NCBI RefSeq assembly: GCF_032050975.1
Contig: NZ_CP116967.1
Location: 1,671,001 to 1,735,000, forward strand
Direction of reading: 5' to 3'
Length of the DNA stretch: 64,000 bases
From: Candidatus Nitrospira allomarina
Lineage (GTDB): Bacteria > Nitrospirota > Nitrospiria > Nitrospirales > UBA8639
Under the pieces are notes generated by a model. It saw only the letters and a program-made list of their open reading frames with translations, did not search any database and had not been told where the DNA came from. Made by a program: the position numbers and the translations under genes. This document shows positions 22,492-28,077 of the stretch, one piece after another; within the stretch, counting starts at the first letter, position 1, and each line of letters opens with the position of its first letter.

Positions 22492-22922
22492 GATGGTGCG
22501 AGTGGGCCGGGTGGCCGCTCACGGAACTTTTCGTGAGAGGAAAGTCCGGACTCCAAAGGGCAAGGTGCTGGGTAACGCCCAGGCGGAGCAATCCGACACC
22601 AGCGCCACAGAAAATATACCGCCAATGGCAAATTCCTCGGTTTTTGCCAGGTAAGGGTGAAATGGTGGGGTAAGAGCCCACCGCGCCTGTGGTGACACAG
22701 GTGGCAGGGTAAGCGTCACCTGGAGCAAAACCAAATAGGGGGACGATTCCCGGTTTGTCGAAGGACGCGATTTCTTCACGAACTGGGAGAGAGACCGGCC
22801 CGGTCGAGGTTCTCGGGTAGGTTGCTTGAAGCCTAGGGTAACCTAGGTTCCAGAGAAATGGTCACCACTGGATGAAACTCGTTTCATCTAGTACAGAATC
22901 CGGCTTATAGGCCCACTCCTTC
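22492..22922 (+). ncRNA. rnpB: RNase P RNA, bacterial class A
   Basis: RnpB is the catalytic RNA that trims tRNA 5' ends. The conserved P4 strand GAGGAAAGTCCGG is at 22537-22549 and its partner ACAGAATCCGGCTTATAG is at 22893-22910. The outer P1 helix pairs GAGTGGGC (from 22500) with GCCCACTC (22911-22918). Internal stretches such as GGTAAGGGTGAAA and the GGTAAG repeat fit class A. Boundaries are set to within a few bases. Confidence 0.95.
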
Positions 22923-23060
22923 ACCATCCTTTACTGATTATGTATGCCCACAATTATGGTGGTTTTCTCCTCACGTGGTGTCGAGGCCTTCTCTGGGAGA
23001 CCCCACAAATGGGAGGCAAAGTTTCAGTAGCATTCTGAGGGGTGAGAATAACTTCCTGGT

Positions 23061-23150: not shown

Positions 23151-23228
23151 GTCCCCATCGTCTAGCCTGGCCTAGGACGCCGGCCTTTCAAGCCGGCAAC
23201 ACGGGTTCGAATCCCGTTGGGGACGCCA
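23151..23228 (+). tRNA. tRNA-Glu (anticodon TTC)
   Basis: A 78-base tRNA with encoded CCA; the anticodon loop CTTTCAA sits on a CCGGC/GCCGG stem. The gene is complete, but its 3' end is the left attachment site of the element that follows. Its natural terminator now lies 4.5 kb away at 27698-27729. Confidence 0.96.
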
Positions 23229-24894
23229 ATAGGATAGGTACCAGGGTACTGGGAAGGAAATTATGATAATTACCCTGTCCAGTTACCTGGTACCCATCGG
23301 ATTCACCCACCATAACTGGCGTACACGTAATCCTTCCATTTAACAGTTTACGCAAAACTTGACGGGCTTGAGCCGGATGTCGACCTAAGACCCCTTTCAT
23401 GTTCTTTACCCGTTTTCGCAAGTCTTGTTTCACCTTGGCCTCGTCAAGGTAAACAACGTTCTTTTTTGAAAGATTCAAAATTTCCAATTCACGTAACAGT
23501 ACCTTTTTCTGGTCTTCTTCTGTTTTAAGTCTGGCTACTAAAGATTCGTGTGGTTGTCCAGCGGCGATGGCATCAATGATCCGTTGAACCTTAGTTTCGA
23601 GTAGGCTGAGTTCTTTTTCTAGGGTACCCTGCCGATCTGCCCCTTCCGTTTTCCCACTTCTTAATTGGGTGAGCGCTTTATCCACGACGTCTTTTATAAG
23701 TTGTTCGTCCAAAACCTGGTTAATCGCGTTAAGGATCACGCGATCAAGAATTTCCTGTTGAATTGCTAGCTTAATAGTACAGATCGCTTTCCCTCGTTTT
23801 TGGTAATAAGTGCACCCATAAAACTTGCTACCAGTTCGTTTCCGCTCACGAGTAATAGCTCCCATACCTCCGCCACAAATCCCACATTTCATTAAACCTG
23901 TAAGAAGGTATTTTGAGTCATAGTCCATGTGGCCAGGACGTCCGAGAATTAACCGTCCCGTTTCAGGATCGTTGGTATAAACGCGTGAATTATGTTGAAT
24001 GCGGTCATCTACGGATTGAGCGAGCTCAGGCGAAATTATTCTCAGATTAAGGTCTTCAGGGCATATCCAATCTTCCTTCGGGCGTTTAACTCGTTTGGTG
24101 GTTCCGCCTTTGTATACGTTTTGGAAGATATTCCATACAATTATTCCCCGGTACCGCTGACGATGAAGAATTTCCTAAATGGCACTGGGAGCCCAACCCC
24201 CTCTGGCCCTTCTTGGCGGAGAGACCTGCTCGGTATTTAAGGACTTGGCTATCCGAGTGACCCCCCAGCCCTGGGTATATCGATCATATATGTATTTCAC
24301 CACCTGTGCTTCCTGCTCATTGATCTTTTGGACAACATAAAGCTTTTGGGGTTTGCCTTCTGGACCAAGATCTTGACTAAGAACTTCAACATTGTCATAG
24401 CCATAGGCCTTGCCTCCAGTTACGTGTCCTAATTTGGCTTTCTTGGCTAATGCATCGTGAGTTCGTTGGCGGCACTTTTCTCGCTCTATCTCAGCTGCAA
24501 AGTTAGAAATCGTCAACATGATTTTATCAGTGGCTGACTCTAGGACTCGTTCTCTATCTTCCAGGTAGAAAAATACACGGACTCCGGCATCCAGAATTTG
24601 TTTCAAGGCATAGCTCGTTTCAATTTGTTCTCTTCCAAGTCGACTTTCCTCCGACATGATAAGGGCCTGAAACGGAGGTTTCGGTTTGAGGGCATTAATA
24701 AGCCGGACAAATCCAGGACGTTTTATGAATTCGGCTCCACTCACTCCATCATCCACAAAAATGAACTCATCCTGGACAATCCAGCCCTTTTTTTCGACAT
24801 ACTCCCGTGCGTGGTCAATCTGTCTCTGTACAGACCTTTCTTCTTCTATCGAAGCCTGTTCATTTGATTAACGTGCATAAATGGCAGCTATCAT
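23188..24894 (-). pseudogene. Large serine recombinase with two in-frame stops
   Basis: One minus frame of 569 codons runs from ATG 24894 (after AGGAG) to 23188. It is interrupted only by TAA at 24870-24868 and TAG at 24177-24175. The N-terminal catalytic part reads MIAAIYAR, stop, SNEQ, so the first stop falls directly before the expected nucleophilic Ser. Further on come resolvase features (SEESRLGR, then an IEREK helix) and the recombinase domain (GKAYGYDN and WAPSAI, stop, EILHRQRYRG). The zinc ribbon CGICGGGMG with a later C, a coiled-coil and a C-terminal tail follow. The last 13 codons are antisense to the 3' half of tRNA-Glu. With stops removed the length is normal, so decay is recent or the stops are read through. 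I regard it as inactive. Confidence 0.9.
23209..23228 (+). repeat. Left attachment repeat (attL) in tRNA-Glu
   Basis: GAATCCCGTTGGGGACGCCA forms the 3' end of tRNA-Glu and recurs exactly at 27672-27691 in the same orientation. This is the classical footprint of integration into a tRNA gene that leaves the gene intact. Confidence 0.9.
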
Positions 24895-24925
24895 GATTTT
24901 CTCCTGTAAATCAGAATTTGAGCAG

Positions 24926-25102
24926 TCAATCCTCTAAGCCAATTCTAGGTCTTGGCTTTGGCTTGTCCAATTTGATGTGGGCCAGTTCGCGTTCCAATAA
25001 CGCCCTGATAAATCCAGAAATGGTGTATCCCTGAGTTCTCAGGACATCCAATTTTTCTTTTAGGTGTCCTGGGATTTCAATCAGGATGCGTTCATTTTTC
25101 AT
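24926..25102 (-). CDS. 58-residue ribbon-helix-helix-like protein
   Basis: This small gene reads ATG at 25102 to TGA at 24926, with AGGAG three bases before the start. The product opens with a short strand (MKNERILIEIPGHL), followed by a helix-turn-helix of the RHH type (LKEKLDVLRTQGYTISGFIR), then a helix and a basic Pro-rich tail. This resembles CopG/MetJ-type DNA-binding dimers. A perfect TATAAT on the same strand (25128-25123) lies about 21 bases upstream. It ends 31 bases before the serine recombinase start, so the two were probably one operon with this protein as repressor or directionality factor. It has no stop or frameshift, unlike its neighbours. Confidence 0.7.
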   Translation of the reverse strand: MKNERILIEIPGHLKEKLDVLRTQGYTISGFIRALLERELAHIKLDKPKPRPRIGLED

Positions 25103-25577
25103 AAACTCCTCTTCTTACTGTAATTATACTTTTTGACCAAGTCTTTACTTCTTTAACTCCAAATAATATATAATAATATATATAAAAACATCTAATTATA
25201 ATAACTTCCATAACAAAAATAAAGTTTACTAACCCCTAGATATTACAGGAAGAACCAGGAGATTACTGCACAGTCCATGTGCTAGCTGGAAGGTTAATTA
25301 CAGAACTGCCATAAGGCACCAACAGCGGCGAGAACACGGGTCTCCCTGCGAACAAAAGCCAGTCTTGGCCGACAACTTTCAGTTGAAAATGGTAAAGGTC
25401 ACCGTCCTTCATAAGGTCAAGGACTTTTTCCTATTGAAATTGAATGAGGAACGGATTCAGTGAATGGAAAAGAAGGGCTTATGGTCGAAAAGGTGAGGGA
25501 AAATAAATACGTCGAACTTTGTGATTTTATCTTGACCCTAACCCCAAAAATATTAGTTTTATGTAGAATTCTTCCTA
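25103..25577. other. AT-rich gap inside the element
   Basis: No gene is recognised. The first 100 bases include a TATAAT element for the small gene above and an AT-rich tract at about 25160-25205. The remainder looks non-coding in all frames. Confidence 0.5.
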
Positions 25578-25638
25578 GGTTGAGAGCAGCTGACTCTTAA
25601 TCAGCGGGCTATAGGTTCGACCCCTACACGGCCCACCA
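25578..25638 (+). pseudogene. 3' fragment of a tRNA-Lys gene (anticodon CTT)
   Basis: The sequence from the D-loop (GGTTGAGAGC) through the anticodon stem GCTGA-CTCTTAA-TCAGC, the T arm GGTTCGACCCC and a final CCA is tRNA-like. The 5' acceptor strand and the start of the D arm are missing, so it cannot be a functional tRNA. It ends seven bases from the tyrosine integrase remnant, so it probably marks the attachment site of a second, older element. Confidence 0.85.
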
Positions 25639-25644
25639 ACCAAA

Positions 25645-26074
25645 TCAAACACTTACAGAATTGGCAGGAAGCAGGTTAGAGGCAGGTGTTATTAGAGTGT
25701 TAGCAAGGTAGAAATACAGCTTTTGGGTAGCTTGAGTTAAATCCTCCGGTGACAATGAGTTAAACCGTTTGTGCATATTCTCCGACTGATGCCCAATGAT
25801 CTTCATGGCCGTTAAAGTGTCCACACCAGCCCGTCGCAAATTGGAAGCTGCACAGTGCCGAAGGTCATAAAATCGAAAAACCTCAATTCCATCCCGCTTG
25901 CAAACTCCTCCAAACCCCCTTTTAATTCTCTGGATTGACTGCCCTTGGTACAAAAAGACAAAGGGACAGTGCCAACCGCCGCACTTTATTTAATTTTCGC
26001 AAGGTTTTTAAAACTGCCGGAGCCAAGGGCACTTCTCTTTTGTATCTTTTCCCCGAAATTAAATGAAATCGTGG
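25645..26074 (-). pseudogene. Tyrosine integrase remnant
   Basis: Only the C-terminal catalytic part is left, and its upstream edge meets the left end of the IS30-family element at 26074/26075. The remnant begins NPRFHLISGKRYKREVPLAP, then shifts frame near 25960-25980. The second frame continues YQGQSIQRIKRGFGG and then FYDLRHCAASNLRRAGV (the H-x-x-R box) and IIGHQSENMHKRFNSLSPED. In most relatives this last motif reads RY-N/H, with Tyr as the nucleophile; here the codon is TTT (Phe). The arginine box I is lost upstream. The IS did not merely interrupt the gene, since no N-terminal part is found on the other side. Confidence 0.8.
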
Positions 26075-27134
26075 ATTCAACTCACTAGTACAACAAATGG
26101 GTTGATGCCAAAACATACTTGATTGGGTGTTTGCATCCCAAGGCATTTCCTTGGTCGGTTGTTGAGTTTGAGCATGACGTGGTCAAGGTCCTGCTGGGTG
26201 ATGTCGTGAAATCACCGCTCTTCGGAAAATACTGGCGAATGAGGCCATTTGTATTTTCGTTGAGGCCCCGCTCCCAGGAGGCGTACGGATGAGCAAAATA
26301 GAAGTCGGCATTAAGGGCCTTGGCGATGGCTTCGTGCTGGGCAAACTCTTTTCCATTGTCAGCCGTGAGGGTATGGACGTGCTCAGGCAGGGGCGCCAGA
26401 AGTTTCAAGATGGCATGAGTGACACCCGCCGATTCCTTATTGGGCACCTTTGCGATCAGCGCCAAACGTGAAGTGCGTTAGGTCAGCGAGACGAGGACTG
26501 GCCGTCGGCCTTTGCCGATGATGGTATCGAGCTCCCAGTCCCCGAGGCGCGTACGGTCTTCGACAATGCCGGGGCGTTCCTCGATAGAGACCCGATTGCG
26601 CAGGTGGCCGCGGCGGTCATAGGCTCCGTACCGTTTCTTGCGGGCCTTCTGGCAGCGGAGATGGCGGTAGAGGGTGCCATCTTGGGCCTTATCGTGAAGA
26701 ACATGCTGATAGATCCATTCGTGACTGATGGTGAGAGCCTGTTGATCAGCCAACCATAGACTGATCTGTTCGGGACTCCAGTCCTCCTGCAGCAGACGCT
26801 CGATCAGGCTCCAGTGCTCCGGGGTAAGACGGCATTGCGCCTTGGTCTGGCGACGGTGAACCGCCAACTGGTGGGCCTGCAAGGGACGATAGCCTCGCAA
26901 ACCTCTGTTGCGCCGCACCTCACGGCTGATCGTGGACTTATGGACTCCCACGACCGCAGCAATGTTGGTTTGGCGATGACCGGCTTTCATGAGCGCATAA
27001 ATTTGGTAGCGGTGTTCTTCGGCAAGCTGTGTGTACCTCATCGGGGCTCCTCTTACTTGGCGGTGAGAAAAGCCACGATCCTACTGCAGCTTGCCTTCGA
27101 TCCACCATGGTAGAGTTGCACTTACGAGTTGAAT
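26075..27134 (-). mobile_element. IS30-family insertion sequence, inactive
   Basis: About 1060 bases, the usual IS30 size, with imperfect inverted ends: ATTCAACTCACTAGTACAAC at 26075 and, on the other strand, ATTCAACTCGTAAGTGCAAC from 27134. The single transposase gene fills it and is broken. It sits next to the integrase remnant, with no recognisable flanking duplication. Confidence 0.85.
26077..27041 (-). pseudogene. IS30-family transposase, nonsense plus frameshift
   Basis: The N-terminal frame starts at 27041 (MRYTQLAEEHRYQIYALMK) and carries the HTH region (ALMKAGHRQTNIAAVVGVHK and STISREVRRNRG). It continues to LVSLT and a TAA near 26480, where relatives have Glu (LTERTSR). The same frame then continues (RTSRLALIAKVPNKESAG) with the DDE residues in LGDWELDTI, TADNGKEF and LNENTNGLI. 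Near 26215 the reading shifts by one base, from GDFTTSPSRTL to the expected DITQQDLDHVMLKLNNRP, which runs on to GINPFVV and a stop inside the left inverted repeat. Two lesions mean the gene is dead. Confidence 0.88.
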
Positions 27135-27671
27135 TCACCAATTCAAAATGAGATCGCCACGATCGCGTGCGAGGAATATTTAATGATGGTTGGTTTACTG
27201 AAATTACTTCTTAGAAGGAGATTCTTCTTTCTTCAAATTCGTGATATCAATTTTCTTACTTGTTTACGTTGGCCTTTATTTTGGAGATCGATTAATTCTG
27301 TTTATACGTTGGGTCGTCCACGAGCTGTCGGGTTAACTGCTTCGCTTCGAGATTGTGTTTATTCTGAATCCCTTACGGTCGACTGGGCGCAATATGTCCT
27401 TTTTTAAACATCACAGACCTCTTTGAGGGAATATTTGATTGTTTAAATAATCATTCTCATGACAGTTAATTTTTCTTAGTAAAAAAGACTAATGTTAATG
27501 AAGGTAACTTTAGTGTTTGGTGACTGCCTAAGATATCCATGCATATTTTCTCTATTCCTAATCCACACTTCTTGAAAACAGTTCACATTTGTAGTACTTT
27601 GCTATGCACGGCTCTTACACAGCTACAAACTCATTGATAGTAAAGCACGTTTGAGTGTTCCAACCCTCTTT
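27135..27671. other. Right part of the element, no recognised gene
   Basis: Frames of up to about 90 codons exist but none resembles a known protein, carries a Shine-Dalgarno, or looks protein-like in composition. The missing 5' part of the tyrosine integrase is not here. Confidence 0.5.
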
Positions 27672-27691
27672 GAATCCCGTTGGGGACGCCA
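27672..27691 (+). repeat. Right attachment repeat (attR)
   Basis: An exact copy of the 20-base tRNA-Glu 3' end (GAATCCCGTTGGGGACGCCA). It is followed directly by the original chromosomal sequence, including the terminator at 27698. Confidence 0.9.
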
Positions 27692-27697
27692 TAGTTT

Positions 27698-27729
27698 AAG
27701 CCGTTGAAGGTTTCTTCAACGGCTTTTTT
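27698..27729 (+). terminator. Rho-independent terminator, originally that of tRNA-Glu
   Basis: A perfect 12-bp stem (AAGCCGTTGAAG with CTTCAACGGCTT), a 4-base GTTT loop and a run of six T. It begins seven bases after the right repeat, just where the tRNA terminator would lie in an empty site. Confidence 0.85.
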
Positions 27730-28077
27730 GTTTAATAAATCATTGCCAGTGATTGATTACAGAATATGACGCGATTCTTGAAGGAAATCGACGAGGCCTC
27801 TTCACTCGTTCAGTTAAGTTCGATATGGTAAGCATAACAATCGTACTTTTTTGGGGCCTGTCGAACTCTTACTCTACTGATACAGAAAGGGATTTTTGGG
27901 GTTGCCACCTCATGTCGTAAACGAGCATCATCCAAGAGTCGAATTTGGCTAGCCAGGGTATCGCTGAAAGTACTTAAGTGTGTAATGATCAGTTCTGATT
28001 CCAGTGGGTATTTGAAGACGGAATGTGACGCGTGTTGCGAACCAAAATTTAATTATTCAAATTTCTGACGAGGTGTT
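27730..28077. other. Intergenic region upstream of the SUMF1-like gene
   Basis: A minus frame stays open from about 28050 to a stop at 27810, with a protein-like composition (for example PLESELIITHLSTFSDTL). It has no ATG or Shine-Dalgarno and I cannot name a family. It may be a gene remnant; I do not call it. The rest is unassigned and should hold the promoter of the next gene. Confidence 0.4.

Follow-up and report, generated by a model that had tools for sequence, protein, structure and literature searches.

The tDNA islands of Islander consist of a tRNA gene, a displaced 3' fragment of that gene and the mobile DNA between them, and the incoming element restores the tRNA gene (PMC4383910). 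Both Islander and a 2022 review state that tRNA genes are not among the targets of serine integrases (PMC4383910, PMC9262239). The locus described here, positions 23,151 to 27,691 of a 64,000-nt window of Candidatus Nitrospira allomarina (GCF_032050975.1, contig NZ_CP116967.1, positions 1,671,001 to 1,735,000, forward strand), shares this arrangement at a tRNA-Glu gene, with the difference that its integrase is a large serine recombinase (LSR, a serine integrase). It is very probably a relic integrative element that entered the tRNA-Glu 3' end by means of its own LSR, an enzyme targeting tRNA and transfer-messenger RNA (tmRNA) genes, with the attachment site of the element (attP) placed inside the LSR gene. 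Coordinates refer to the window and are collected in Table 1.

Three other described systems are close to this locus. The phiRSM filamentous phages of Ralstonia, in which a serine recombinase integrates at the end of tRNA-Ser through a 13-bp core, are the sole experimental precedent that we found for a serine recombinase at a tRNA gene; however, the enzyme is described as belonging to the resolvase/invertase subfamily, and attP lies between two genes and not in the integrase gene (PMC4471427). Streptococcal integrative and conjugative elements in rumA use a single serine integrase and have repeats of 2-21 bp, one of them within the integrase gene. They resemble the present case in that the enzyme is a large serine integrase and that integration swaps 3' ends and changes the integrase C-terminus, but the target is a protein gene and the paper describes no tag-like tail (PMC4701971). 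In the integration-dependent immunity phages, such as BPs, attB overlaps a tRNA gene and an ssrA-like tail (-LAA/-AA) is lost from the C-terminus on integration; the integrases of these phages also bear such tails, and the -AA ends have been proposed as an ssrA-like protease signal (PMC9262239, PMC8092301). These phages have a tyrosine integrase and attP in the repressor gene, whereas here attP sits in the LSR gene and the integrase at the tRNA is not of the tyrosine type. In a survey drawn largely from openly accessible papers, no description came up of LSRs that target tRNA genes and have their attP inside the LSR gene; an earlier mention is possible.

An element between tRNA-Glu and its terminator

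The initial annotation had proposed that an exact 20-bp repeat of the tRNA-Glu 3' end frames 4.46 kb, and that a strong terminator seven bases beyond the right copy is the tRNA's own, to be expected there in an empty site. Both proposals were borne out. The full repeat (23206-23228 and 27669-27691) has 23 bp with one mismatch, the last 20 bp being exact, and the copies are spaced 4463 bp apart. Across the 4.55-Mb genome, and allowing up to three mismatches, the 23-mer had no occurrence besides these two and the 3' end of one other tRNA gene; with so rare a sequence, the pair is not due to chance. A 12-bp stem followed by T's starts at the seventh base past the right core copy and folds at -18.6 kcal/mol (z -5.5).

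The tRNA-Glu site was compared among genus-mates and family-mates, the nearest relative being the genus-mate G011. A terminator hairpin comes within a few bases of the tRNA-Glu 3' end in 13 genus-mates and 3 family-mates; in these 16 relatives the first 40 bases past the tRNA fold at -18 to -26 kcal/mol, a range that includes the value of the displaced copy. The hairpin is nearly identical to window sequence 27692-27730 in seven genus-mates, the nearest one among them. At the empty site of G011, tRNA-Glu is followed by TAGCTTAAGCCGTTGAAGGTTTCTTCAACGGC and T9, with 94% identity over the tRNA neighbourhood, and the alignment of the right flank begins at the first base past the repeat. Other genus-mates with an empty site share this right flank as well. 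Since the relatives have the terminator directly behind tRNA-Glu, we conclude that the element displaced it. No empty-site relative was found to contain the interior sequence, nor was the repeat found elsewhere without an element. The tRNA gene and its displaced fragment bound the element as in the Islander islands, with the support of the empty sites, and the tRNA-Glu side carries the LSR in the place of a site-matched tyrosine integrase.

A different, decayed insertion of 1.5 kb occupies the same tRNA-Glu in G003 and G015 (L023:2022-3547 and L024:2071-3588). It is older than that of the window, and the terminators that it displaced are weakened to -6 and -7 kcal/mol. Taken together, the two insertions indicate that the separation of tRNA-Glu from its terminator is real and has occurred at least twice within the genus, and that the orphaned terminator seems not to be retained over time. 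The G003/G015 insertion contains an apparent broken carbonic anhydrase gene, as judged by eye, and its right arm is similar to that of the window element.

No good terminator was found on the + strand between 23229 and 25063, so that read-through from tRNA-Glu, antisense to the LSR, is possible and would be permitted by the anatomy of the locus. Having lost its intrinsic terminator, the tRNA-Glu transcript probably relies for its end on Rho or on processing, and any read-through may be handled by one of these, processing in that case acting near the hairpin that directly follows the tRNA. This hairpin folds at -34.4 kcal/mol (z -4.4) and is not universal among the relatives. A universal replacement terminator borne by the elements was considered and rejected: the mean z is only -1.0 over 24 attL sites, and the window hairpin has no U tract. 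In the LSR elements at tRNA-Asn (L081, L083 and L085) the tRNA is immediately followed by a strong hairpin and a short T-rich tail. The two arms of this hairpin change together from one element to the next, and it may serve as a replacement terminator within DNA that codes for the integrase.

Large serine recombinases at tRNA and tmRNA genes

The window LSR contains the domains PF00239, PF07508 and PF13408 (Resolvase, Recombinase and zinc ribbon), which are also present in its intact relative in G172. Its frame is broken by two nonsense codons (TAA at 24868-24870 and TAG at 24175-24177), one of which directly precedes the catalytic serine; the relatives have intact frames. The window copy is therefore a dead example of the tRNA-targeting LSR group. 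It is also the sole PF07508 match in the genome, so that the element is now immobile unless it receives outside help.

Relatives of this LSR in order-mates share ~44% identity with it. Among the first 30 loci inspected, the window's own included, 24 have a convergent tRNA gene at the LSR 3' end, and the LSR stop codon typically lies 21-56 bp inside that gene, in antisense. A scan of named genomes at a threshold of at least 30% identity yielded 52 LSR relatives; by a strict test the stop lies in or at a convergent tRNA in 33 of them, 22 at tRNA-Glu and the others at Ala, Ser, Arg and Leu. Three more have a nearby tRNA, and at least six more adjoin a tRNA or tmRNA fragment. These tRNA- and tmRNA-adjoining LSRs span several phyla. 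As tRNA genes cover, by our estimate, only ~0.1% of such genomes, a chance association is excluded. Relatives of the LSR that insert in the tmRNA gene are those at L246 and L247 (G304:C1:3053854-3080033) and L151.

The targets follow the LSR tree: Ala, Ser and Leu each form one supported clade and the Glu targets are spread over several clades, so that the target type is inherited with the LSR, with occasional switches. Eight of 19 distant LSRs (22-28% identity) also end at a tRNA (Trp, Tyr, Asp, Asn, Ser, Leu or Met). These are L189, L194, L197, L200, L204, L207, L208 and L211, several of them in candidate-phyla bacteria. Isolated phages yielded only distant LSRs, below ~32% identity.

Past the LSR, the 3' end of tRNA-Glu occurs a second time in G172 (23.8 kb), G276 (6.6 kb), N. 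moscoviensis (17.2 kb), Nitrospira BO4 (29.8 kb), two Acidobacteria (15.5 and 9.6 kb) and others, and the nearest LSR relatives at tRNA-Glu have the same core of 12-20 bp at their far end. All second copies have at least TTGGGGAC[AG]CCA, and their leftward divergence from the tRNA begins at varying points, so that the crossover must, we infer, fall in the 3' acceptor strand. The right arm of the window element, CCCTCTTTGAATCCCG, is similar to that of G172, CCCTCTTTGGAAAATCCCG, which links the window element to this LSR group once more. A search for far copies at tRNA-Ala gave no convincing pairs, and the tmRNA pair in G304 is the exception. Tandem accretion was also seen, with several second att copies followed by another LSR 3' end (L214-L216, L122, L123 and L129). 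The cargo of the G172 element includes Zot and a Rep_trans replication initiator, as in filamentous phages, and a group II intron reverse transcriptase (L121/L122); that of N. moscoviensis includes a DnaB helicase and a weak match to a tail protein.

Exchange of the integrase tail and alternative explanations

Because attP sits within the 3' end of the LSR gene and the LSR frame enters the core, the last residues of the protein vary with the DNA beyond the core, and integration replaces the tail. In the integrated state the tails are tRNA read in antisense (..SPTGFEPVLPA, ..GVPNGI and ..WCPQRDLNPCYCLERAMS). The tails of the circular forms, derived by joining the far arm to the core, are ..FSIDVLALAA (G172), ..FTIDLLVVAA (G276), ..FKIELLVEAA (BO4) and ..IPFQGVVQAA (N. 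moscoviensis), and further ones are ..VKRQAA, ..LLIAAA, ..VVVDAA and ..PARAA. When the far arms were taken unfiltered, 11 of 17 had a frame ending in AA, versus 2.2% of control positions (p ~1e-14, a value that ignores relatedness), and this frame is the one used by the LSR in all ten tRNA-Glu elements with an intact arm and LSR. An unbiased three-frame scan in N. moscoviensis likewise found the QAA tail in the LSR's own frame. Both far arms of the G304 tmRNA element end in this way (..ALAA and ..VLAA); these tails resemble the tag of the tmRNA itself, ANQELALAA.

LSRs of the clade that lie on viral contigs free of tRNA genes end in AA in 6/7 cases, and two such viral LSRs have the tRNA-Glu core 80-87 nt upstream of the stop. 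No AA end was seen among the 38 integrated LSRs that abut a tRNA, nor among 20 other viral LSRs. As read from the sequences of these relatives, the free-form -AA tail is thus shown to be swapped for tRNA-antisense residues upon integration, so that the loss known for integration-dependent immunity phages is found here in the integrase.

The proposed course of events starts from an attP that would carry a copy of the tRNA 3' end; given such a copy, the tRNA stays whole, and the downstream DNA, with the terminator, would be moved to the far side of the element. The LSR would catalyse this site-specific recombination into the tRNA-Glu 3' end and in the same step exchange its own -AA tail for residues read antisense from the tRNA. 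By analogy with the phage tags, the -AA tail is most likely an ssrA-like protease tag, so that the free-form integrase would be short-lived and the integrated form, having lost the tag, would not. The LSR would then have died by its two nonsense codons, and a relic of a tyrosine element of the tRNA-Lys type and an IS30 copy would have landed inside, in an order that we infer.

Several observations weigh against this course of events. The role of the LSR as the integrating enzyme is deduced from sequence, and metagenome assemblies are the source of most LSR relatives. The cores of serine integrases often have 2-8 bp, so that the 20-bp core of the window is long, and the identity of the 12-20 bp cores may be due in part to the requirement that the tRNA be rebuilt. 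The far arm of the window reads ..CFTINEFVAV, ending in AV and not AA, and is apparently a decayed relative of the -AA tails. Finally, the -AA signal could be structural.

The length of the core would suit a tyrosine integrase, an enzyme type that classically targets tRNA 3' ends and has cores of about this size (PMC4383910), and a remnant of such an enzyme exists in the element; a tyrosine integrase, now lost or represented by the fragment at 25645-26060, could have integrated the element in the classical way with the LSR as a passenger. We consider this unlikely, as the remnant adjoins a tRNA-Lys fragment and not tRNA-Glu, LSRs abut tRNA genes in many genomes, and the LSR alone is common to elements with differing cargo, no Phage_integrase match having been found among the open reading frames tested in G172, G276, G333 and G326. 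A further explanation would have the two tRNA fragments stem from a chance duplication or an assembly error, without any mobile element. The small size and decay of the element might suggest it, but the empty sites join exactly at the core and other elements are bounded by the same core, which makes this explanation extremely improbable.

For the tail, we regard it as an even call that a widespread group of tRNA- and tmRNA-targeting LSRs loses an -AA protease tag on integration, which would act as an integration-sensing switch on integrase stability. The chance is somewhat below even that -AA is the natural structural end of the protein, its last beta strand, and no tag, in which case integration would truncate the LSR and may weaken it. 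The hydrophobic F-x-[IG] pattern common to the tails before their end agrees with a strand, but no other feature of the tails is as constant as the two final alanines, and ends in -AA are reported to characterise ssrA-like tags on phage integrases and repressors (PMC8092301, PMC9262239).

Composite structure of the element and wider meaning

Table 1. Positions of the features at and within the tRNA-Glu element.
Feature	Positions	Strand	Basis or remark
RNase P RNA gene	22499-22923		Rfam
tRNA-Glu(TTC), intact target gene	23151-23228	+	ARAGORN; Rfam tRNA, 61 bits
LSR pseudogene, single frame	23188-24894	-	Start 24892-24894; final stop 23188-23190 in tRNA-Glu, antisense
Left att core copy, 20 bp exact, equal to tRNA 3' end	23209-23228	+	Repeat search; core shared with relatives
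Hairpin behind tRNA, no T tract, within LSR coding sequence (antisense)	23233-23298	+	Folding
Open reading frame of 58 amino acids upstream of LSR	24926-25102	-	Ribbon-helix-helix-like by eye; no Pfam match
tRNA-Lys(CTT) 3' fragment, 56 bp, relic second attachment site	25583-25638	+	96% to host tRNA-Lys gene
Tyrosine integrase, C-terminal part (PF00589)	25645-25953	-	More remnant to ~26060
IS30-type insertion sequence	26064-27145	-	Inverted repeats 26064-26094 and 27115-27145
Right arm of element	27615-27689	-	Circular form would extend LSR frame as ..SPTGFKEGWNTQTCFTINEFVAV
Right att core copy, 20 bp exact	27672-27691	+	Repeat search, genome scan and comparison with relatives
Displaced tRNA-Glu terminator, 12-bp stem and T tract	27698-27725	+	Folding; same place behind tRNA-Glu in relatives

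The initial annotation was right to call the element composite, as its interior holds a 3' fragment of tRNA-Lys, a remnant of a tyrosine integrase next to it and an IS30 copy, but its two recombinase types are in fact three: the LSR pseudogene, the tyrosine integrase part and a broken DDE transposase of the IS30 type. The match of the LSR to tRNA-Glu and the placement of attP at the LSR C-terminus go beyond that annotation. Because it adjoins the tRNA-Lys fragment, the tyrosine remnant is taken to be the relic of another element, and it is, like the IS30 copy, a passenger. The insertion sequence agrees with the IS30 family in having HTH_38 and a DDE transposase between inverted repeats in ~1.1 kb; the transposase matches PF13936 (HTH_38), gives a weak rve match below the cut-off and has an in-frame TAG at 26478-26480. 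Copies with 93-96% identity are present in the genus-mates G011 and G002.

DNA homologous to the tyrosine-integrase remnant adjoins tRNA-Thr in G017, but a tRNA-Lys fragment in the window. The host tRNA-Lys gene has a degenerate second copy ~1.5 kb further on. The RNase P RNA gene lies ~230 bp upstream of tRNA-Glu, in a gene order conserved among genus-mates.

The local site is a clean example of how a tRNA gene can lose its terminator to an insertion, and the older insertion in G003 and G015 is a parallel case, there with decay of the terminator that was displaced. Beyond the genus, a whole LSR clade uses tRNA genes in several phyla, contrary to the standard statements (PMC4383910, PMC9262239), and given the distant LSRs at convergent tRNAs, such targeting may reach far wider. 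Its clade-wise retargeting among tRNA-Glu, Ala, Ser, Leu and tmRNA makes the choice of target by serine integrases traceable from sequence, and short cores in universal tRNA genes would provide predictable attB sites, which is of use in the engineering of non-model bacteria. The swap of the integrase C-terminus would be a testable, self-contained switch that ties integration to the stability of the integrase.

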